The notes beneath the pieces are model-generated. The model saw nothing but the letters and a program-made list of their open reading frames with translations, ran no database searches and was not told where the DNA came from. A program made the position numbers and the translations under genes. A DNA stretch of 38,567 nucleotides, taken from the NCBI GenBank assembly GCA_018302335.1, contig JAGVZT010000068.1:1-38567 (forward strand), in the 5' to 3' direction. The first letter of the stretch is position 1. Each line of letters opens with the position of its first letter. Shown here piece by piece: positions 13,825-33,177 of this stretch. Origin of the DNA: Candidatus Woesearchaeota archaeon (GTDB lineage Archaea > Nanobdellota > Nanobdellia > Woesearchaeales > JAGVZT01).

Positions 13825-14526
13825 CTACTGGATGCTGTGCACCACGAGGCCCTTCGCGCTTATCTCCAGAGGATGGATGTCCTCATCGTTGCGCGTCCGC
13901 CGCATCTTCCGGACCAGGAGGCTGCGAGAGTACTGGGAGCCGAGCGATTCGAAGGTGATGTGGACGACTCCCGTGCTGACGAACGCGGAGACCGTGTCGC
14001 TCGCGAGCACTCCTTCGTCACTCGCCTGGGAGATGAGCAGGGTGGTGGTGTCCATCTTCTTCACGGTGCCGAGGAAGCGGTAGAGGAAATTTGCCATGGA
14101 GTAGCCGCTCACTTCGGATGGGCCTTCGCGTGTGGGCACGTTGACCGCGAGCGTGGTGAGGGAGTCGATGACCAGCCGCTGCACCTTGTGCTCCTGAATA
14201 AGTTCGAGAATCTCCTTCGCTGTCGAGCGGCCTATGCTGTCCGGGGTGACGGTGATGATGGAAAGGAGTCCCTCCTTCTCCAGCTTCTCCAGGTCCCATC
14301 CGAACTGGCTGGCCTGCTCCAGCAGCTCCTGCCGGTTCTCCTCGAACGAGACGTAGGCGCCCCGCTCCTTGGATTTAGTGGCCCCATTGTAGAGGTACTG
14401 GAGGGCGAAGAGGGTCTTTCCCGTTCCTGGGGTGCCGCTGAGCAGGACGGCGCTGCCCTTCGGGAATCCGCCCTGGACCAGCTTGTCAAAGCCCGGAATC
14501 CCCGTAGGCACCCGCTCTGTGGTCAT
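13825..14526 (-). CDS. KaiC-like RecA-superfamily ATPase
   Basis: VPTGIPGFDKLVQGGFPKGSAVLLSGTPGTGKTLFALQYLYNGATKSKERGAYVSFEE...RLVIDSLTTL; Walker A GTPGTGKT. Confidence 0.93.
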   Translation of the reverse strand: MTTERVPTGIPGFDKLVQGGFPKGSAVLLSGTPGTGKTLFALQYLYNGATKSKERGAYVSFEENRQELLEQASQFGWDLEKLEKEGLLSIITVTPDSIGRSTAKEILELIQEHKVQRLVIDSLTTLAVNVPTREGPSEVSGYSMANFLYRFLGTVKKMDTTTLLISQASDEGVLASDTVSAFVSTGVVHITFESLGSQYSRSLLVRKMRRTRNDEDIHPLEISAKGLVVHSIQ

Positions 14527-22927: not shown

Positions 22928-24202
22928 ATGGCCCTGCTCGCAGAGAGAGTCCGCCTGCTGGAGAACTCCTCCATCCGGAGAATGTTCGACGAAGCAGCCA
23001 GGAGGCCGGACGCCGCGAATCTCACCCTCGGCCAGCCGGACTTTGATGCCCTGCCCGCGACGCGCTCTGCTGCCCTGCGGCACCTGAGGTCTGCTGAGCC
23101 GGCATCCCACGGCGCGGGCCTTCTCTCTCTCCGGAGAGCGGTATCCGTGAAGCTCCGGGAGCGGAACGGCATCCCCGCGAAGCCGGACACCGTGCTCATC
23201 ACCCCGGGAGTCACTGCCGGCATCCAGCTCCTCTGTCTCGCCCTCTTCCAGCCAGGGGATGAGGTGCTGGTGCCCGACCCGTATTTCGCGGTGTATCCCC
23301 ACGCCTTGCGTCTTGCCGGCGCGACATCGGTGCCCGTGGACACCTACCCGGACTTCTGCCCTCGTGCCAGCGCGCTGCGGAGGCATCTGACCGAGCGCAC
23401 CAAGGCTCTCATCCTGAACTCGCCGAACAATCCGACCGGCGCGGTGTACCCGGAGAGAGAGCTGAAGCGCATCGCCCGCTTCGCAGGCGCGAACGGCCTC
23501 CTCGTCGTCTCGGACGAGATTTACGAGCCCTTCGTGTTCGAGGGGAAGCATGCGAGCATCGGGGCATACCATGAGGACACGCTCACCCTGAATGGCTTCT
23601 CCAAGAGCGCCGGCGTGCCCGGATGGCGCATAGGGTATGCAGCAGGGCCTCCGGCGGTGATTTCTGGGATGCGCAGGCTTCAGGAGCTTACCTGCATGCG
23701 AATCCCCGCGTTCGCGCAGAAGGCGATGGTGACCTCCCTCGCGGAGAGCTGCGCCCAGCACGCGGAGCGCTATCGCATGCGCCGGAACCACCTGTGGCGC
23801 GCGCTGAGCGGGATGTACAAGCTGATGAGGCCGAGAGGGGCATTCTACGCCTTCCCGGAGGCCCCTGGCGGGAATGGCGATGAGTTCGCGCTTCATGCGC
23901 TCGATGAGGGAGTCGTCGTGGTTCCTGGCTCCGCGTTCTCCGCGCGGAACACGCATTTCCGGATCTCGTTCTCGGGAATAGACCTCGCTGCTGGAATCGA
24001 GGCCCTGCGTAGGCTCAGCGCAAAAAACGTCGAGGAACCGCTCGGCCGCATTGCGGACAATCCTCGGCATGACGGAGAGGCTGTCCGGAACGCGGACGAC
24101 AAGGCGGCTGAGATGACGCCCGACAGAGGGTTTGCCGCAAACCATTTATACACAAAAAAAAGGAGGGAGGTGCCATGGAGGACTTCTGGCAGGGGCAGGT
24201 AG
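22928..24202 (+). CDS. Class I/II PLP-dependent aminotransferase (C-terminus reads through element E)
   Basis: NLTLGQPDFDALP...ITPGVTAGIQLLCLALFQPGDEVLVPDPYF...LNSPNNPTGAVYPERELKRIARFAGANGLLVVSDEIYEPFVFEG...LNGFSKSAGVPGWRIGYAAGP. Confidence 0.93.
   Translation: MALLAERVRLLENSSIRRMFDEAARRPDAANLTLGQPDFDALPATRSAALRHLRSAEPASHGAGLLSLRRAVSVKLRERNGIPAKPDTVLITPGVTAGIQLLCLALFQPGDEVLVPDPYFAVYPHALRLAGATSVPVDTYPDFCPRASALRRHLTERTKALILNSPNNPTGAVYPERELKRIARFAGANGLLVVSDEIYEPFVFEGKHASIGAYHEDTLTLNGFSKSAGVPGWRIGYAAGPPAVISGMRRLQELTCMRIPAFAQKAMVTSLAESCAQHAERYRMRRNHLWRALSGMYKLMRPRGAFYAFPEAPGGNGDEFALHALDEGVVVVPGSAFSARNTHFRISFSGIDLAAGIEALRRLSAKNVEEPLGRIADNPRHDGEAVRNADDKAAEMTPDRGFAANHLYTKKRREVPWRTSGRGR
24043..24109 (-). 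repeat. Dispersed GGCCG-ended element, copy E (67 bp) inside the 3' end of the aminotransferase ORF
   Basis: Reverse complement agccgccttgtcgtccgcgttccggacagcctctccgtcatgccgaggattgtccgcaatgcggccg; aligns to copy A end to end without gaps (~43/67 by hand). Confidence 0.75.
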
Positions 24203-24702
24203 CTATCGTCCTCCTCGTGCTGCCGCGGGAGCAGTACCATGAGAGGCTGCGCGACGTGGTGAGCGCGGTTGCAGCTCGCGGCGAGAAGGTCTGTTACGTC
24301 ACCCTCAATCGTTCGTATGCGAAGGTCAGGGAAGAGATTTCCGCCGCAGGGGGCGCTGTCGGGCAATTCTTCTTCCTGGATACGGCGACTCCTTTCGGGA
24401 GCCGTGCGCCGGAGGACTGCATCCTGGTGGGAGACGCCCACGCCCTCACGGAACTTGGCCTCGCGGTCACCTCCGCCATCGAGGAGCGCGGCTGCTCCAT
24501 TGCTCTCTTCGATGCTGTTTCCACCCTGCAGGTCTACCATCCTGCGAATGTGGTGCTCATGTTCGTGCATGCAACCATCACCAAGCTCCGGGGCCACGGC
24601 ACGAAAGGGCTGCTCATCATGGTGCCCGAACAGCGGGATTCTCCGTTGGTGAAGGATGTCGCGATGTTCTCGGACCGGGTGATGGATTTCACGGTGGGCT
24701 GA
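24175..24702 (+). CDS. Uncharacterised RecA/KaiC-fold-like protein without recognisable Walker A
   Basis: MEDFWQGQVAIVLLVLPREQYHERLRDVVSAVAARGEKVCYVTLNRSYAKVREE...; 1-nt overlap with the downstream KaiC-like gene; TATA 24144 and SD present. Confidence 0.7.
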   Translation: MEDFWQGQVAIVLLVLPREQYHERLRDVVSAVAARGEKVCYVTLNRSYAKVREEISAAGGAVGQFFFLDTATPFGSRAPEDCILVGDAHALTELGLAVTSAIEERGCSIALFDAVSTLQVYHPANVVLMFVHATITKLRGHGTKGLLIMVPEQRDSPLVKDVAMFSDRVMDFTVG

Positions 24703-25391
24703 TGGTCTCTCGCGTCCCTACAGGCATCCCGGGTCTCGACGAGCTCATCGGCGGCGGTCTCGTGCAGAAGAGCACCACCATCGTGGAAGGCGGTCCGGGC
24801 TCCGGGAAGAGCATTTTCTGCATGCAGTTTCTCGTCGCGGGTCTCCTGCAGGGCGAATCCTGTCTCTTCATCTCCTTTGAGGAGACCACGGAGCACGTCC
24901 TTCAGGACCTGCGGGACTTCCCGTGGGACCTTCAGAAGAGCGTGGACTCCGGGAAACTGCAGGTGACGTACTACACCCCCGAGCAGGTCAACCAGCTCCT
25001 CGAGACCGGCGGCGGCCTCATCCACGACCAGCTGGAGGGGATGAACGCGCGGCGCCTGGTCATTGACTCCCTCACCGCGTTCTCTCTCCTCTACCCCAGA
25101 GAGCTCGAGCGGCGGAGGGCGCTCTTCTCCCTGTTCGAGGCGGTGCGCCGCTGGGGGTGCACCTCCCTGATGACCCTGGAGAGCGACCCGGAGCGTGAGG
25201 AGCGCCGCGCCCTCTCCACTGAGTTCGAGGCGGACAGCGTCATCCTGCTGTACAACCAGAAGAGGGAGCACCTCCGGGAGCGCAGTCTGGAGGTCCTTAA
25301 GATGCGCGGCTCGGCGCACACCAACAGGATACTGCCGATGAAGATCACTTCCTCAGGCATCCTGGTCTATCCAAAGGAGTCGGTCTTCTGA
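24702..25391 (+). CDS. KaiC-like RecA-superfamily ATPase linked to the pilus operon
   Basis: VPTGIPGLDELIGGGLVQKSTTIVEGGPGSGKSIFCMQFLVAGLLQGESCLFISFEETTEHVLQDL...RRLVIDSLTAFSLL; Walker A GGPGSGKS. Confidence 0.92.
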   Translation: MVSRVPTGIPGLDELIGGGLVQKSTTIVEGGPGSGKSIFCMQFLVAGLLQGESCLFISFEETTEHVLQDLRDFPWDLQKSVDSGKLQVTYYTPEQVNQLLETGGGLIHDQLEGMNARRLVIDSLTAFSLLYPRELERRRALFSLFEAVRRWGCTSLMTLESDPEREERRALSTEFEADSVILLYNQKREHLRERSLEVLKMRGSAHTNRILPMKITSSGILVYPKESVF

Positions 25392-25777
25392 TGAGGGGCC
25401 AGTTGGCAGTCGAGGCTCTGGTGCTCGTCGGTGCGAGCCTTGCGGTGGTACTCGTCCTGTCGTCTCTGGCCCTCGGCGCCGCTTCAGACCTGGAGAGGCA
25501 GCTCGCTTCGCACGAGGCAAGACTCGCGGTGTCCTCCCTGGCCGATGCGGCGCGGGCGGTGCATTATCAGGGAGACGGCGCCCGGCAGACCCTGTGGGTG
25601 CTCCTCCCCGAGGGCATGAGTTCCCTGGAGGCCAGCCAGCGGACCCTGCTCCTGGTAACCGACGACGAGGCGTTCCACGAGAGCCTGCCGTTCAACGTGA
25701 CGGGCACGCTGACCGCGGAGGCTGGACTGAGGAGGGTCCAGCTCAACGCGACGGCATCGGGAGTGGTCTTCGGATGA
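25391..25777 (+). CDS. Pilin-like secreted protein with class III-type signal
   Basis: MRGQLAVEALVLVGASLAVVLVLSSLALGA: RGQxxVExL followed by a hydrophobic stretch. Confidence 0.75.
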   Translation: MRGQLAVEALVLVGASLAVVLVLSSLALGAASDLERQLASHEARLAVSSLADAARAVHYQGDGARQTLWVLLPEGMSSLEASQRTLLLVTDDEAFHESLPFNVTGTLTAEAGLRRVQLNATASGVVFG

Positions 25778-26166
25778 GGCGCGCCCAATTCGCAGTGGAG
25801 ATGCTGGCGGTGATGTCCCTGCTGCTGCTTCTTGGGACTGCCATCGTGAGCCAGGCTTCAGTCCAGCAATCGCTTGCCGACCAGGGTTCGAGGGGTGCGT
25901 CAGCGATGGCAATCGCCGAAGAGACAGCCTCTGTCCTGAATGCTCTCGTGCTGGCGGGAAACGGGACCAGCGCCACGCTCAGGCTGCCGGATGCCCTGCC
26001 TGATGACACGCCCTACTCTGTTGCGGCGCGAAGCCACCTGCTGGAGCTGCGCTGGGAAGACGTCGTTGTGCAGGCTCCCCTCCTTGCGGGCGCGGTCACG
26101 GGAGAGCTGGTCCCCGGCGCGATGTTCTCTGCGAGCTATGGCGAGGGGGTGCTCCGCTTTGCCTGA
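25774..26166 (+). CDS. Pilin-like secreted protein with class III-type signal
   Basis: MRRAQFAVEMLAVMSLLLLLGTAIVSQASVQQSL; QFAVEML motif; ATGA overlap. Confidence 0.75.
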   Translation: MRRAQFAVEMLAVMSLLLLLGTAIVSQASVQQSLADQGSRGASAMAIAEETASVLNALVLAGNGTSATLRLPDALPDDTPYSVAARSHLLELRWEDVVVQAPLLAGAVTGELVPGAMFSASYGEGVLRFA

Positions 26167-26647
26167 CCGCGGCCAACTCTTCCTTGCGGATGGAATCCTC
26201 GCGGCCTTTGTCCTGACCTCGCTCCTGCTCTCGCTGTACGGACTGCAGGCCTATCTCCAGAGGGAGGCTGCTGAGGAGCATTCCCGCTCCGACCTTGCGC
26301 TCCGTGCGTGGTACGCCTCCAGCGTCCTTCTGGGGACTCCGGGCGAGCCTGAGGAATGGAACGCAGGGAATGTCTCCGCTGCCGGCCTGAAGGGCGGGCC
26401 TGCTGAAGTCAGCCATGAAAAACTTGCCCAGCTTTCCTTGCTTCTGAGCGAAGAGTCCTACGCGCCGAGCGGCTTCCTGGGACCGGGCTATCGCTATCGT
26501 CTCTCGGTCTATCCCATGCCCGATGCTGGCGTCCCGCTCATGGTTGCCGGCGGCGCGCCTCAGGGAGACACCGTGGTGCGGGTGACGCGATTCGCGCTCT
26601 ACAACGGGAGCCGCGCGAGAGTGGAATTCACCGGGTGGCAGACATGA
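26159..26647 (+). CDS. Pilin-like secreted protein (probable TTG start)
   Basis: (L)PDRGQLFLADGILAAFVLTSLLLSLYGLQAYLQREAAEE; TTG at 26159 overlaps the upstream stop. Confidence 0.65.
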   Translation: MPDRGQLFLADGILAAFVLTSLLLSLYGLQAYLQREAAEEHSRSDLALRAWYASSVLLGTPGEPEEWNAGNVSAAGLKGGPAEVSHEKLAQLSLLLSEESYAPSGFLGPGYRYRLSVYPMPDAGVPLMVAGGAPQGDTVVRVTRFALYNGSRARVEFTGWQT

Positions 26648-27048
26648 GACGCGGCTTCTTCAGCGCCGACGCGCTCATCGCGCTCATCGTCACCGCGACG
26701 GTCGCGCTCGCGGTCCTCCTCCTGTTGCGGGCGACTCCCGATGAATCCGGGCAGGAGCAGCTTCATCTGGCTGCTGTCGACAGCGGTGCGGTCCTCGAAG
26801 CGGAGGGCTCTCTCCGGCTGCTCGCCTCCGGAGACGCAAGCGGAGTGGAGAGCTATCTCGACGGCCTTCCGGAGGAGTTGTGCGCGGAGGTGGCACTGCA
26901 CGATGCCAGCGGAAGCCTCGTGCAGCTGGTGCGGAGAGATGGCTGTGCCGATCCGCGGAACACAACTCGTCAGGTCAGCGCCGCTCGTCGGGTTCTTCCT
27001 GCGGGAGACACGAGCTATCTGGTGGTGCTCATGGCGTGGTACCGATGA
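26644..27048 (+). CDS. Pilin-like secreted protein
   Basis: MRRGFFSADALIALIVTATVALAVLLLLRATPDESGQEQL; N-terminal charged residues then hydrophobic helix. Confidence 0.65.
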   Translation: MRRGFFSADALIALIVTATVALAVLLLLRATPDESGQEQLHLAAVDSGAVLEAEGSLRLLASGDASGVESYLDGLPEELCAEVALHDASGSLVQLVRRDGCADPRNTTRQVSAARRVLPAGDTSYLVVLMAWYR

Positions 27049-27845
27049 GACGCGCCATGGTCGCCAGCATCACTGCGGTGCTGCTCCTCTCGTCGCTGAC
27101 GGTGCTGGCCCTCGCCCTCGCCCAGCAGCGCAGGAGCTACTCCCGCGCGAAGGGCTTCCTGCCCGAGACTCTTGCGTTCGCCGCGGCGCTGGACGACCTC
27201 TCGTCCGGCTTCTCCGAGGGCCTGTTCGGCATGAGCGTCGTGGAGCTGTCCAATGGAAGCCTGCTCCTGGAGCCGGCCGGATTCCTCAGTCCGGCGATAG
27301 ACCACGAGCAACGTCTCGACTCCTATCGCGAGGCCGCTGCCCTTCTTTCCGCGCAGCAGCACCTCAGTCTCTCGCTCGCAGGAGGCCCTTCCTTTGCCAT
27401 CGAGCCGCAGAACATCACCTTGACTTTCAACGGAAGCCAGCTCAGCGGCCAGCTGGGGGAGGCGGTGCAGTCCCTCCGCATCACCGCCATGGCATCCGCG
27501 GTGAACGCGACTTTGAATTCGAGCCCGGCTGCCAGCGGAGACACTCCCGTAGAGGTGCACATCCGGGATGCAGCGGGCAATACGGCGCTCAGCACCACAG
27601 TGCTGCTCGACCTCGCAGCGGAGAACGCGCCGTTCGAGGTCTCCTTTTCGAATGCCTCGGTGAGCGTCGAGGTGTCCTCGTCCAACCTGCTCATCACCAG
27701 CGCAGGGACCGCAGTGAACGTGACCACCCTGGCGCTCGAGTTCCTGGAAGCGGACTCTCTCCTGCGCAGCGATGTAATGGTCACTCTGAACAGCTCGACT
27801 TTTTCCGTGAGAAGACCACTCATGACCAGAGGTGACACCACATGA
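27045..27845 (+). CDS. Secreted protein with N-terminal anchor and several N-glycosylation sequons
   Basis: MRRAMVASITAVLLLSSLTVLALALAQQRRSYSRAKGFLPE...; sequons NGS, NIT, NGS, NAT, NSS, NAS, NVT. Confidence 0.7.
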   Translation: MRRAMVASITAVLLLSSLTVLALALAQQRRSYSRAKGFLPETLAFAAALDDLSSGFSEGLFGMSVVELSNGSLLLEPAGFLSPAIDHEQRLDSYREAAALLSAQQHLSLSLAGGPSFAIEPQNITLTFNGSQLSGQLGEAVQSLRITAMASAVNATLNSSPAASGDTPVEVHIRDAAGNTALSTTVLLDLAAENAPFEVSFSNASVSVEVSSSNLLITSAGTAVNVTTLALEFLEADSLLRSDVMVTLNSSTFSVRRPLMTRGDTT

Positions 27846-29560
27846 ACAGCATCACCACCCCGCTCGATGCCCTGCTGGACGCCTTACCTCCAGAAGGACT
27901 GGACCTGGCGACCCTCGCTGCCCGCATCCGCGCGGAACCTGCGCGCGTCCTCGCCTGGGCCGAACTGCTGGAGAGGCAGGGAGCGCTCCGCCTCATCTTT
28001 CCTCTTTTCGGAAAGGGGAGGGCCATCCCTATCCAGCGTGCCGCGCCGTGCTTACCTGGGGAAATGCCAGTCGGCTCAGAAAGCTATGCCGTTCAGGCAG
28101 ACGGCATCAGCGCCCAGGTGAGCATCGTGCTGAAGCCGGGCGCCGCGGGAACATACCTCCTTCAGGCGCCAACTCTCGGTCCGGGAACCGAGGCGCTCCT
28201 CAAGGACATCATCGAGATACACGCAGGACGTGCCGAACTCCCGAGCTATCCCCGGAGCTGGCCCGAGCGCCGCCTCTATCTTGACAGCCAGCTGGTCCTC
28301 ATGCGCGCGATACTCCGCGAGCGCGCGGGAGAGCTGCCCGAGGAGACAGCCTCTGCGCTCGCCGCCATGGCAGTGCATCGCGCACGCGGGCTGAAGGACC
28401 TGGAGCTCTACCTCGCGGATGACTGGCTGGAGGAGCTTGCCATCACCGGCAGCAGGTTCCCCATGGCGGTCTACCATCGGAAGCACGGCTGGCTGGAGAC
28501 AGAGCGGAGATTCCAGGACGACGAGGAGATTTACAGCTTCGCGGCAATCATCGGGAGGCAGATGGGCAAGGAAATCACCATGCGCACCCCCATCGTGGAT
28601 GCTCCCCTCTACCAGGGGGACAGGAGCATCTCCACCCTGTACCCGGTCTCGTCGCTGGGCAACACCGTGACCATCAGGCGGTTCGCGCGCAATCCCTGGA
28701 CCCTGGCGGACCTGCTCTCCTCGGGCAACCTCTCCGTCGAGATGGCTGCGCTGCTCTGGCAGGCGATGCAATTCGAGATCAACATCCTCATCGCGGGCTC
28801 CACCGCTTCCGGCAAGACGTCCCTGCTCAACGCCCTCTGCGCGCTCCTTCCCAATGCCCAGCGCATCGTCTCCATCGAGGACACCAGGGAGCTCTCCCTC
28901 CCCGAGACCCTGGCATGGAACTGGGTCCCGCTCGCGGTGCGCCAGCAGAACCAGCAGGGGGAGGGCACCATAGAGATGCTCGACCTCATGGTCAGCGCCC
29001 TCCGCATGCGTCCAGACCGGCTGGTCATCGGAGAGGTCCGTAGGAGGGAGCAGGTGCTCACCATGTTCGAGGCGATGAACACGGGTCATGCGGTGTATTC
29101 CACGCTCCATGCGGATACAGCCGACCAAGTGGTCCGGAGGCTTGTCGAGGCGCCGCTCTCCGTCCCCGCACGGGACGTGCAGGCCCTCCAGCTTGTGGTG
29201 GTGCAGCACAGGGACAGGCGCACCGGCCTGCGGCGCACACGGGAAATCGCCGAGGTGCTGCACCTTCCTGGCGATGAGGTGAAGCTCAACTACCTCTTCC
29301 GCTGGCAGCCCCGCAAGGATGCATTCGATGAGGTGTCGCAGAGCGTCCGGCTCGCGGAGGAGCTGAACCTTCACACGGGACTCTCGCTGCAGGACCTCGC
29401 GAAGGACAGGAAGGAGAAGGCGGAGCTGCTGGAATGGCTCGCGAAGCAGAAGCCAGGCCTCGCGGACTTCGGCAGGCTGATGCATCTCTTCTACCAGGAC
29501 AGCGCGGCCCTGCTGGCGAGCATCCGCAGGAAGTCGCCTCTGGACGAGGTGCTGAAGTGA
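27842..29560 (+). CDS. GspE/TadA-family type IV pilus/secretion ATPase
   Basis: LTRRGDYS-like core: TVTIRRFARNPWTLADLLSSGNLSVEMAALLWQAMQFEINILIAGSTASGKTSLLNALCALLPNAQRIVSIEDTRELSLPE...RPDRLVIGEVRRREQVLTMFEAMNTGHAVYSTLHADTADQVVRRL. Confidence 0.95.
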   Translation: MNSITTPLDALLDALPPEGLDLATLAARIRAEPARVLAWAELLERQGALRLIFPLFGKGRAIPIQRAAPCLPGEMPVGSESYAVQADGISAQVSIVLKPGAAGTYLLQAPTLGPGTEALLKDIIEIHAGRAELPSYPRSWPERRLYLDSQLVLMRAILRERAGELPEETASALAAMAVHRARGLKDLELYLADDWLEELAITGSRFPMAVYHRKHGWLETERRFQDDEEIYSFAAIIGRQMGKEITMRTPIVDAPLYQGDRSISTLYPVSSLGNTVTIRRFARNPWTLADLLSSGNLSVEMAALLWQAMQFEINILIAGSTASGKTSLLNALCALLPNAQRIVSIEDTRELSLPETLAWNWVPLAVRQQNQQGEGTIEMLDLMVSALRMRPDRLVIGEVRRREQVLTMFEAMNTGHAVYSTLHADTADQVVRRLVEAPLSVPARDVQALQLVVVQHRDRRTGLRRTREIAEVLHLPGDEVKLNYLFRWQPRKDAFDEVSQSVRLAEELNLHTGLSLQDLAKDRKEKAELLEWLAKQKPGLADFGRLMHLFYQDSAALLASIRRKSPLDEVLK

Positions 29561-30336
29561 TTCGCGCGCCGAGAGTTCTGCTCCAGCTCATCGCAGGTGA
29601 AGTTCGCAGCGCCTACGGCATTTCACCAGAGCGCTACCTGTTCCGCGCGGTCTCGGTCGGACTCCTCGGAGGAGCGGCATTCACCGCGCTGCTCTCCCTG
29701 CGCGCCTCAGAAGAGGCGGCTGTGGCCGGAGGGCTCGCCTTCCTCCTGCTCACCCTCCTCGCCGCACGCGCGCTCCCCAGGGCTCGCATGGCCGCGCGGG
29801 TGGCTGCTGCGGACAGCCACCTTCTCCTCGCGGTCCGGGAGCTGGGACTGCTCCTCAAGGCCGGATACCCGCTGCAGGACGCCCTCATCCACCTGTCCCG
29901 CGGGCACGGGGAGGTCTCGCGGCAGCTAGGGCTCCTTGCGAGGGACATCGAATCAGCGCGCCCTCTCGGAGAATGCTTCGGCGCTGCGAGGATGCGTACG
30001 TCCCCTCAGGCGCTCCTCCGGCTGCTCTCCCTGCTTGAGGGCGGCTTCCGCTCCGGAAGCTCTCTTGAGGTGAGCCTCAATGCTCTCGTCTCGGACCTCG
30101 CGAATGACCAGCGCTCCCGCATCGAGTCCTACACCCGGGAGCTCAATGTGTGGAGCATGGCGTATCTCCTCCTTGCGGTGGCCATACCCACCATCGGGGC
30201 GGTGATGCTCCTTGTCCTCGGCGCCTTCGCCGCAGGGGCCGAGATTCCCGGTTTCCACCTTTTTGTCATCGGGAGCATAGGGATGCAGGTGCTGATGCTC
30301 ATGACGCTGCGGACCAGGAGGCCGGTGGTGACATGA
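29557..30336 (+). CDS. TadC/GspF-like inner-membrane platform protein, first of two
   Basis: GTG start overlapping the ATPase stop; LLLAVRELGLLLKAGYPLQDALIHLSRG...LLSLLEGGFRSGSSLEVSLNALVSDL and C-terminal TM helices. Confidence 0.85.
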   Translation: MIRAPRVLLQLIAGEVRSAYGISPERYLFRAVSVGLLGGAAFTALLSLRASEEAAVAGGLAFLLLTLLAARALPRARMAARVAAADSHLLLAVRELGLLLKAGYPLQDALIHLSRGHGEVSRQLGLLARDIESARPLGECFGAARMRTSPQALLRLLSLLEGGFRSGSSLEVSLNALVSDLANDQRSRIESYTRELNVWSMAYLLLAVAIPTIGAVMLLVLGAFAAGAEIPGFHLFVIGSIGMQVLMLMTLRTRRPVVT

Positions 30337-31205
30337 TGCGCGCGCTCGCGGCATTCTGGCCCTTGAGACTACGCAGGCTCCTCGGATACGCTGACAGGCG
30401 CTCTGAAGAGCGTCTCGGCAAGCTGACCGCATGGTGGCTGGCTGCCTTGCTGCTCTCGCTGCTTACGGGTGTGGCGAGCAGGGGCGCGCTCGTGCTTGCG
30501 GCCCTGGTCGCTGTGGCCCCTCTCCTGTGGATGCTTCGCGAGCGCCTCAGGAGCGAGGAGAAGGCAGGGCAGGCCGAGGCTCAGCTTCCCGTCCTCCTGC
30601 GGGAGACGGCCTCCTATCTACGGGCGGGACTCTCTTTCGATGAGTCCCTCGCCCGCGCCGCCTCGCACGATGGCGTCCTTTTCCGTCGCCTGCGGACAGC
30701 CCTCTCCCGGAACCCCGGCGCAGCCCTCATGGAGCTATCATCTGGTCCTGCAGGCGGTGTCTTCGCGCTCCTGGGACCTGCCTCCAGAGCGGGGTCGGTC
30801 ACCGCGGCCCTGCTTGAGGAGCTGGCCCGCCATGCCGAGGAGGGACGCTCCCTGAGGCAGGAGTTCCAGGTGAGCACCAAGAGCTACTCCATGCTCATCG
30901 CCATGAGTGCGGTGCTCATCATGCCGGTGCTGCTCGCCCTCTCCCTCCGGTTCCTGCGAGTCATCTCCGGCATCACGCCCGGCGCTTCTGGAGGCCTCGG
31001 TCTTCCCCAACTGGTCGCGTCCTCGCTGCCCGCGGAGCAGACCATGGCCGCGCTGTCCGTCATCCTGCTCCTCTGCACGGTGCTGCTCGCGACCCTGTTC
31101 GGCAGCGTCGCGCGTGGCGAAAGCATTGCGCGCGGGGTGAGCAGGTCTCCGCTTTTCCTTGTCGCAGCGCTCGCAGTGTTCTTGGTCGCTCGGGGGCTGC
31201 TCTAG
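30333..31205 (+). CDS. TadC/GspF-like inner-membrane platform protein, second of two
   Basis: AQLPVLLRETASYLRAGLSFDESLARAASHDG...LLGPASRAGSVTAALLEELARHAEEGRSLRQEFQVSTKSYSMLIAMSAVLIMPVLLALSL; ATGA overlap. Confidence 0.85.
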   Translation: MMRALAAFWPLRLRRLLGYADRRSEERLGKLTAWWLAALLLSLLTGVASRGALVLAALVAVAPLLWMLRERLRSEEKAGQAEAQLPVLLRETASYLRAGLSFDESLARAASHDGVLFRRLRTALSRNPGAALMELSSGPAGGVFALLGPASRAGSVTAALLEELARHAEEGRSLRQEFQVSTKSYSMLIAMSAVLIMPVLLALSLRFLRVISGITPGASGGLGLPQLVASSLPAEQTMAALSVILLLCTVLLATLFGSVARGESIARGVSRSPLFLVAALAVFLVARGLL

Positions 31206-31549
31206 CGGCGCAGCTCTCTGATGAGCGGAGCGAGCTTGCTGTCGAGCAGTTCCTGAAGCTCCGGGTCATCCTTGTGCATGAAGATATCCGGAATCTCGAG
31301 CACCTCGGTCTTGCGGAACGCCCCATCGTGCAGCTGCCTGATGTGCTCGAGGTGGTGCTCCTCCATCACGAAGATGCGGTCAGCGCGCTCGATGTGCTCT
31401 CTGGTGACCCTGGTCCGCGCTCCGAAGGAGGTGCCCGCGCTCTCCACCTCGACCCCCGAGATGCGATGCTCCTTGAGCTTCCTCTTGAGGAATTCCTCCG
31501 CAGCGACGCTTCTCTGGAGATTGGCCGTGCAGATGAACAGGATGCGCAT
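31202..31549 (-). CDS. Low-molecular-weight phosphotyrosine phosphatase family protein
   Basis: MRILFICTANLQRSVAAEEFLKRKL...VESAGTSFGARTRVTREHIERADRIFVMEEHHLEHI; N-terminal CX5R P-loop (CTANLQR). Confidence 0.88.
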   Translation of the reverse strand: MRILFICTANLQRSVAAEEFLKRKLKEHRISGVEVESAGTSFGARTRVTREHIERADRIFVMEEHHLEHIRQLHDGAFRKTEVLEIPDIFMHKDDPELQELLDSKLAPLIRELRR

Positions 31550-31593
31550 GCTGCGGGTAAAGCGGGCGGCATATATAAGCGTTCGGGCGCTCG

Positions 31594-33177
31594 TCAGAAG
31601 CCCGGTCGCATCGCCGTGCGAGTCACGCGTCGTCCCGCAGGAATGCCGGGTATCCTCAACACTGCGGCCGACTCCTGCTTCTCTTCGGCGACCGGCTCCA
31701 TCCTGGGAGGAGCATTCTTGCTGAGCACGATGCGCCTCTGCCACTCTTCCCGCGTTGCCGGGAAATCGCTCCTCTGGTGGCAGCCGCGGCTCTCCTGCCG
31801 GAGCAGCGCGGAGGTGGTGATGAGCATCGCCACGCCGAGCATGCCCTGCTCAACCGTCGGCTGCAGCGAGGCGAGTCCGGCAATCGCCTCCAGGAGTCCC
31901 TGCTCGTCGCGCTGCATCCCGACAAGGCGCCACATGAGCGAGGCAAGGGAGTCGGATGGCGTAGCGTGATGAGCCGACCGGCCAACATCCTGCGGGGGTG
32001 CCTGCGTACCCCTGGGCTTCTCGGTCAGAATGCGAAGCGCCGCTGTCCTGCCGAACACCGCTCCCTCCAGGAGAGAGTTGCTCGCGAGGCGGTTGGCGCC
32101 ATGGACGCCCGTGCAGGCGCACTCCCCCACCGCGTAGAGCCCAGGGACGCTGCTCGTGCCGGAGAGGTCGGTGCGTATCCCTCCGCAGAGGAAATGCGCA
32201 GCAGGGATGACCGGAATCGGCTGCTCAGCCGGGTCAAGGCCGTAGGCGGCGCAGGTTTCCATCAGGGTGGGAAAGCGCGTGACGAGCAGCTCGCGGGAGA
32301 GATGCCGCACGTCGAGAAACACGTCAACGCCCAGCTGGACGCTGCGCCAGATGCGCTGGCTCACCACATCGCGCGGGGCGAGTTCCCGGAGGGGGTGGTC
32401 CGCGAGGATTCGCGCGCCGTCGGCATCGATGAGATGGCCGCCCTCGCCGCGCAGGGCCTCGGTGAGCAACTCGTTCCTTGCCTGGGGAAGAGCGAGGGTG
32501 GTGGGATGGAACTGCATGAACTCGAGGTCGGCGAGCTCCGCGCCGGCCTGGTACGCCAGCCACAGTCCCTCGCCCGTGGCGGATTCGGGATTCGAGGTGC
32601 GCTGCCACAGCCTGCCCGCTCCGCCGGTGGCGAGGACGACGGCGTCCGCATGCATTTTGGTCTCTCGCTTCTTCCGCATATCGAGAAGAGTGGCTCCCGT
32701 GCAGCGGCCTTCCACCGTGAGCTGTGTGGCGAGATGCTGCTCCAGCACCTCGATGCGCGGATGAGCGCGCACAGCGTGGGAGAGCGCCTCCTGGATGGCA
32801 GCGCCTGTCTTGTCCGCGACATGAGAAATCCGGCGCTGGGCATGCCCTCCTTCCCGGCCGAGGGATGCTTCGAACCGCACCCCCCTGGCGAGCAGCTCCC
32901 GGATGGCCTCCGGTCCTTGGCGCACCAGATTATCCACAGCAAGCCGGTCGCACAGGGCTCGCCCTGCCTCGAGGGTATCATGGACGTGGCTTTCGAAGGT
33001 ATCGTCCCTTCCGACCACCGCGGCGATTCCTCCCTGTGCCTTGCTGGTGTTCGTCTCCGGGGACTTGCTCGCGACGAGGACGCGCTGGCCTTCGGGGATG
33101 GCATCCGCGACGGCGAGGGCGGCGCTGAGGCCTGCGACGCCCCCGCCGATGACCAGGCAGCGCACGCGCTCAGCCAT
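31594..33177 (-). CDS. nadB: L-aspartate oxidase (C-terminal tail encoded by element F)
   Basis: MAERVRCLVIGGGVAGLSAALAVADAIPEGQRVLVASKSPETNTSKAQGGIAAVVGRDDTFESHVHDTLEAGRALCDRLAV...GGIRTDLSGTSSVPGLYAVGECACTGVHGANRLASNSLLEG...RQESRGCHQRSDFP. Confidence 0.95.
   Translation of the reverse strand: MAERVRCLVIGGGVAGLSAALAVADAIPEGQRVLVASKSPETNTSKAQGGIAAVVGRDDTFESHVHDTLEAGRALCDRLAVDNLVRQGPEAIRELLARGVRFEASLGREGGHAQRRISHVADKTGAAIQEALSHAVRAHPRIEVLEQHLATQLTVEGRCTGATLLDMRKKRETKMHADAVVLATGGAGRLWQRTSNPESATGEGLWLAYQAGAELADLEFMQFHPTTLALPQARNELLTEALRGEGGHLIDADGARILADHPLRELAPRDVVSQRIWRSVQLGVDVFLDVRHLSRELLVTRFPTLMETCAAYGLDPAEQPIPVIPAAHFLCGGIRTDLSGTSSVPGLYAVGECACTGVHGANRLASNSLLEGAVFGRTAALRILTEKPRGTQAPPQDVGRSAHHATPSDSLASLMWRLVGMQRDEQGLLEAIAGLASLQPTVEQGMLGVAMLITTSALLRQESRGCHQRSDFPATREEWQRRIVLSKNAPPRMEPVAEEKQESAAVLRIPGIPAGRRVTRTAMRPGF
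31604..31670 (+). repeat. Dispersed GGCCG-ended element, copy F (67 bp) inside the 3' end of nadB
   Basis: ggtcgcatcgccgtgcgagtcacgcgtcgtcccgcaggaatgccgggtatcctcaacactgcggccg; 48/67 identical to copy A without gaps. Confidence 0.85.

Follow-up and report, generated by a model that had tools for sequence, protein, structure and literature searches.

What do two KaiC-like proteins do at the head of a gene set for building a pilus? The question is raised by a stretch of 38,567 nt from a Candidatus Woesearchaeota archaeon (assembly GCA_018302335.1, contig JAGVZT010000068.1, the whole of which is referred to as the window). Ten open reading frames (ORFs), all on the forward strand, span 24175–31205 and overlap successively by 1, 1, 4, 8, 4, 4, 4, 4, and 4 nt. 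This agrees with the original prediction, which was made from the DNA letters alone and described an overlapping operon that joins KaiC-like proteins to a pilus or secretion machine. The source organism is a DPANN archaeon of the order containing Woesearchaeota, and the window is contig C9 of its 1.56 Mb genome (G000, 93% complete). Chance does not account for the operon, since unrelated genomes share the gene families and their order. Its likely products are the motor, platform and minor pilins of a type IV adhesion pilus of DPANN archaea, plus a pair of KaiC proteins dedicated to regulating it.

Components of the operon

The second gene encodes the KaiC-like ATPase that had been predicted: its product matches PF06745 in Pfam (E = 4e-55) and has an intact Walker A motif. 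Among PDB structures the CI domain of clock KaiC comes closest (136 bits), while the CII domain (74 bits) and ArlH (36 and 31 bits) score lower. Motif comparison showed that the protein keeps Walker A and B, the catalytic Glu pair (FEE) and the KxRG finger, all of which it shares with the CI domain of cyanobacterial KaiC. The FEE and KxRG residues of KaiC serve in ATP hydrolysis and in the contact with the neighbouring subunit. Since both are kept, we predict that the operon KaiC is active as a ring ATPase. Unlike cyanobacterial KaiC it has one domain and no CII phosphorylation site (STEFEAD replaces the HIST motif of CII), so it does not qualify as a clock kinase, and neither kaiA nor kaiB was seen in the operon.

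The first gene had been described as RecA-like without an evident Walker A motif, and so it proved. Its product has no Walker A (P-loop), no FEE and no KxRG, scores above the Pfam cut-off for DUF7504 (30.5 against 27 bits) and matches PF06745 weakly (E = 6e-4), which makes it an inactivated KaiC, or iKaiC in the term used in the literature for such domains (MEDS, DUF835; PMC5847659). Like the iKaiC proteins of that paper it has the KaiC fold without a P-loop and resembles DUF7504 and DUF835, but it is a stand-alone gene paired with a predicted active KaiC at a pilus locus. The P-loop is also absent from 33 of 33 homologous genes across 80 DPANN loci.

Five small pilin-like genes had been proposed between KaiC and the ATPase. 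The proposal is firm for pil3 and pil4, which carry clear class III motifs (MRGQLAVEAL and MRRAQFAVEM), whereas pil5 and pil6, with no family match, are assigned by N-terminal motif and position. The motifs of pil5 (QLFLAD), pil6 (FFSADAL) and pil7 (MRRAMVAS) are degenerate forms, and those of their relatives are clearer (QxFSxD, KxxFTLDAxxA, and KKGFLFTI, respectively). The pil4 family is conserved and placed after pil3, and the pil7 family is conserved as the final pilin gene. Q6, D11, G62, P64, and W67 are invariant in the pil5 family; pil6 has an FTxDAxxA-type N-terminus in which D9 is invariant, and C80 and C101 are near-invariant.

In the AlphaFold 2 (AF2) model of pil3 (pLDDT 94) an antiparallel sheet comes after a 60-residue helix, a shape like that of a pilin; the model of pil7 (pLDDT 85) combines beta domains with a long helix at the N-terminus. 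A structure search of the PDB with these two models gave no match at E < 0.2, hence no fold family is named, and a profile search of PDB sequences with pil3, pil4, and pil7 returned no matches.

The GspE/TadA-type ATPase (T2SSE, E = 1e-33) and the two TadC-like platform proteins (T2SSF, E = 7e-13 for TadC1 and 1.5e-5 for TadC2) were recovered as first described. Within the PDB the ATPase is closest to AfGspE, the GspE of Archaeoglobus (222 bits), followed by FlaI (167 bits) and CpaF (136 bits), and TadC2 scores 42 bits with the UpsF model, far under its cut-off of 400. Two prepilin peptidases (Peptidase_A24, above cut-off) are encoded in the genome, which thereby holds what characterizes an archaeal type IV pilus: an assembly ATPase of the GspE/TadA type, platform proteins, pilins with class III signals and prepilin peptidases. 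Two tandem stand-alone major pilins, MARAQASTEYLIILAVV... and MRRAQASAEYLIILAVV..., lie on contig C72 of the same genome (L185:2714-3703), and major pilins of the Q-A-S/T-EYLIILAVVI type adjoin TadC2 in several relatives.

At its N-terminus (~65 residues, 27842–28060) the ATPase resembles a winged-helix domain. Relatives have a small separate gene right upstream of the ATPase gene with a weak match to the ATPase hidden Markov model (HMM; 15–24 bits; L191:4511-5008, L192:822-1265, L194:9482-9865), and the window ATPase may be a fusion with a winged-helix-like part.

Table 1. Genes of the operon and possible start signals ahead of it (window positions).
Feature	Position	Strand	Length (aa)	Description
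TTTATA	24145-24150	+		Possible operon start signal; read from sequence, consensus resemblance only
Ribosome-binding GGAGGGAGGTG	24162-24172	+		Possible operon start signal; read from sequence, consensus resemblance only
iKaiC (gene 1)	24175..24702	+	175	P-loop-less KaiC/RecA-fold protein, DUF7504-like
KaiC (gene 2)	24702..25391	+	229	Single-domain CI-type KaiC ATPase
pil3	25391..25777	+	128	Class III pilin
pil4	25774..26166	+	130	Class III pilin
pil5	26159..26647	+	162	Minor-pilin-like; TTG start
pil6	26644..27048	+	134	Minor-pilin-like
pil7	27045..27845	+	266	Minor-pilin-like; last pilin gene
Pilus assembly ATPase	27842..29560	+	572	GspE2/TadA-type; N-terminal winged-helix-like region, possibly a fusion
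TadC1	29557..30336	+	259	Platform protein; GTG start
TadC2	30333..31205	+	290	Platform protein

Linkage of KaiC to the pilus genes

An alignment of the operon KaiC was scanned against 84,980 prokaryote species, and the best 80 loci, many of them cut by contig ends, were annotated with HMMs for the ten operon families. A locus was called linked if it held at least two pilus families. The 80 loci came almost only from DPANN and Altiarchaeota records; outside DPANN they comprised an Altiarchaeota record and archaea without a named lineage, and none otherwise. Two loci labelled Jorgensenbacteria (L076) and Chloroflexota (L139) carry a DPANN-type KaiC and are probably mis-binned contigs.

KaiC could have turned out to be absent from the syntenic operons of relatives. 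The synteny survey instead found it linked to pilus genes in 48 of the 80 loci (40 of 55 among those of at least 10 kb); for loci centred on different paralogues of KaiC in the window's order the count was 2 of 26. The complete order KaiC-pil3-pil4-pil5-pil6-pil7-ATPase-TadC1-TadC2 occurs in nine loci besides the window (L061, L064, L070, L073, L089, L093, L102, L128, and L135), which span Woesearchaeota, Diapherotrites and Micrarchaeota. L128 and L135 represent Diapherotrites and the complete genome of Fermentimicrarchaeum limneticum, and L102 (G016) also has an iKaiC gene upstream. The iKaiC gene is present in 30 of the 80 loci, often at most about 100 bp from KaiC.

Presence of the two enzymes was also compared across 59 related genomes, at E < 1e-130 for an ATPase of the window's type and E < 1e-56 for KaiC. 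Each was found in 10 genomes; 8 had both, 2 had the ATPase only, 2 had KaiC only and 47 had neither (p = 8.5e-7). The distances of KaiC and ATPase are correlated over 35 loci (Mantel r = 0.71, p = 1e-4), a result that plain vertical descent fits too.

Shared descent could in fact yield both the linkage and the correlation of distances, which would make KaiC a mere neighbour kept by vertical inheritance, with no functional tie to the pilus. We regard this as very improbable. The adjacency has been kept in several DPANN lineages despite rearranged gene order, in that the ATPase-TadC module is inverted, moved or distant in some loci, yet KaiC stays next to pil3; the control paralogues and the co-occurrence speak against it as well. 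The comparative evidence shows KaiC to belong to the pilus system.

In many Woesearchaeota pilus loci two KaiC genes lie side by side (L075, L077, L080, L088, L096, L106, L107, and L110), and the first gene of such pairs mostly forms a clade of its own in the KaiC tree. The window itself has a second KaiC-like gene at 13834–14517 on the reverse strand, away from the pilus genes and with 32% identity to the operon KaiC.

Comparison with the archaellum and other known systems

The archaellum also has a KaiC-superfamily protein, ArlH, encoded with a pilus-type ATPase (ArlI) and a platform protein (ArlJ). The parallel drawn in the original prediction is right in that KaiC accompanies an ATPase and platform proteins; it is loose for KaiC itself, whose likeness is to the ATP-hydrolysing CI domain of clock KaiC and which stands far from ArlH. 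Could the operon nevertheless be a divergent archaellum, with KaiC in the role of ArlH and a pair of the small proteins in those of ArlF and ArlG? The motor parts are homologous, and pil3 has a weak match to archaellin (PF01917, E = 0.0025, below cut-off), the only match found for archaellin, ArlF, or ArlG; among the two pilins that were folded, pil3 and pil7, neither has a fold match to archaellum proteins. The ArlH model NF052589 has no match at E 1e-40 in the genome; within the phylum, 4 of 194 genomes have a match above the cut-off of the model. The operon proteins fall well under the model cut-offs (KaiC 53 against 215 for ArlH, ATPase 232 against 550 for FlaI).

The trees point the same way. 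The window ATPase and the KaiC-linked DPANN pilus ATPases form one clade (support 100/99), whereas the ATPases adjoining ArlH genes (ArlI) form a separate one (100/99). In the KaiC tree the window protein falls within a set of 11 (support 99*), eight of them pilus-linked, and ArlH lies outside on a very long branch, as far as the two ArlH rows in this tree go. Where KaiC has FEE or FEQ, 7 of 7 ArlH sequences have (S/T)EL, and KxRG is absent from all seven; ArlH does not hydrolyse ATP (PMC8978795). The operon further has two platform genes where the archaellum has one, and no archaellin. A divergent archaellum was therefore rejected, as the genome lacks ArlH and neither does the ATPase group with ArlI nor KaiC with ArlH, and we give it almost no credence; the earlier description of a non-archaellum set was correct.

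KaiC families in or near archaeal type IV pilus operons have been reported, and a regulatory role was proposed for them (Makarova, Koonin and Albers, 2016, PMC4858521). As in the window, a single predicted operon there holds KaiC along with a pilus ATPase, TadC and pilins; major pilins stand alone, and KaiC is the proposed regulator. The KaiC proteins there belong to arCOG01171, arCOG01174, and arCOG01175. The loci come from other archaea and other ATPase clades, whereas the window operon has a fixed set of five pilins, two TadC genes and iKaiC, and its layout is DPANN-wide. The Tad-like pilus clusters of Nanohaloarchaeota (2022, PMC9563170) are likewise from DPANN and combine TadA, TadB, and TadC with kaiC, in two copies. 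They belong to another lineage and have no recognisable pilins, and the part of the account used here does not describe gene order or iKaiC. Islands with FliI, TadC and divergent pilins were also described in DPANN in 2019 (PMC6393860).

The link of KaiC to archaeal pili is thus already known in outline, from 2016 and, for Nanohaloarchaeota, from 2022, and the novelty implied at first is confined to the layout. Within the portions of the literature covered, the 2017 KaiC review and supplementary tables aside, the fixed DPANN-wide arrangement of five pilin families and iKaiC does not seem to have been described. With this layout, five protein families that count as 'hypothetical' in many DPANN genomes acquire a working identity.

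Function and control of the pilus

All DPANN archaea cultured so far require host contact (PMC11291902), which makes the building and control of attachment filaments a central open question. The original prediction left the choice between an adhesion pilus and a secretion system open. In about half of the relatives pil3 has a C-terminal extension, to 300–790 residues, in which Pfam finds LamG-type lectin domains, FG-GAP repeats, Ig and fibronectin-like modules. It is the LamG, FG-GAP, and Ig domains of pil3 orthologues that favour adhesion over secretion. As the window pil3 is short, its adhesive role would follow from that of its relatives. Very large extensions also occur on pil5 and pil6 in some genomes (793 and 618 aa; L188:3732-6113 and L051:11528-13384), so variable extra domains are not confined to pil3.

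A pseudopilus for secretion or DNA uptake would account for the match to AfGspE, which the PDB lists as a protein of type II secretion, and the five small genes for pilin-like proteins are reminiscent of pseudopilins. We find it unlikely, as the lectin, propeller and Ig domains on pil3 orthologues and the location of major pilin genes beside TadC2 in relatives argue against it, and neither a secretin nor a dedicated substrate was seen; secretion has no positive evidence in its favour.

For an adhesion pilus, the operon would provide the motor in the inner membrane, the platform, and the minor pilins that serve as tip or in priming. Prepilin peptidases encoded elsewhere would cleave the class III pilins, and the ATPase with the two TadC proteins would assemble a filament whose shaft probably consists of the stand-alone major pilins of C72. 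The pil3–pil7 proteins may prime or cap this filament, and pil3, fused to lectin, propeller or Ig domains in many relatives, may present the adhesive tip. KaiC, as a CI-type ring of predicted ATPase activity, would set the timing or duration of pilus assembly, with the P-loop-less iKaiC as its sensor or adaptor. Such a KaiC/iKaiC switch likely controls pilus assembly, and with it cells probably control attachment.

Several points weigh against this interpretation. The Fisher p of 2e-6 for the linkage was obtained with loci that are not phylogenetically independent, and most loci are without iKaiC. In two genomes (G001 and G009) the ATPase was found but KaiC was not detected; G001 is from the window's own family, and its contig begins just upstream of pil3, where KaiC would lie, so its absence there is not established and the gene may have been missed. 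The activity of KaiC is a prediction, and its interaction with the motor a possibility. Finally, the genome has further pilin clusters (pil3–pil6 on C74, L187, C74:1-8000; a partial set on C51, L186) and further ATPase/TadC loci on C5 (L035) and C43 (L036), and in the stretches covered no KaiC lies immediately beside any of these four. KaiC would therefore be a regulator of the window pilus and not a general assembly factor.

How would KaiC exert its control? It may act by direct contact with the motor, by analogy with ArlH and ArlI. A bolder version, which we put forward as speculative and rather doubtful, has KaiC form a ring that includes a dead KaiC subunit for sensing or as an adaptor; the ring would dock on the motor of a pilus other than the archaellum and pace its assembly through a slow ATPase cycle. 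The KaiC fold would then have been recruited to a pilus motor a second time, independently of ArlH, and kept since early DPANN evolution for attachment to hosts or surfaces. It is also quite conceivable, though we lean against it, that KaiC and iKaiC form a general signal-transduction hub that controls expression of the pilus genes, by transcription or stability, and perhaps of others, without touching the motor. Such a role has been proposed for archaeal KaiC families generally and is discussed for haloarchaeal CirA (PMC13286277). It would suit the numerous KaiC and iKaiC paralogues that the window's order has at a distance from pilus genes, and contig C43 of the same genome has a two-domain KaiC clustered with three iKaiC-type genes (L036:11260-15545), ~5–6 kb from its ATPase/TadC locus. 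The KaiC subfamily of the operon is, however, tied specifically to structural genes, its gene shares 1 nt with pil3, and it occurs together with a single clade of ATPases. The present data fit either direct motor contact or control of expression. The operon supplies named, expressible proteins with which direct gating of pilus motors by KaiC can be tested, and the motif evidence suggests that its KaiC could hydrolyse ATP where ArlH cannot.

Upstream of the operon, the TATA-like box ~27 nt ahead of the first ATG fits poorly with a ribosome-binding site as strong as this one, and we make no claim of a promoter. The neighbouring aminotransferase ORF (22928–24202) extends 28 nt into gene 1; the final ~60 residues of that ORF do not look native, and a frameshift may be hidden there, or gene 1 may truly start at a later position. 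At the other end, a convergent gene for a low-molecular-weight phosphatase-like protein (31202–31744, reverse strand) overlaps TadC2 by 4 nt (31202–31205).

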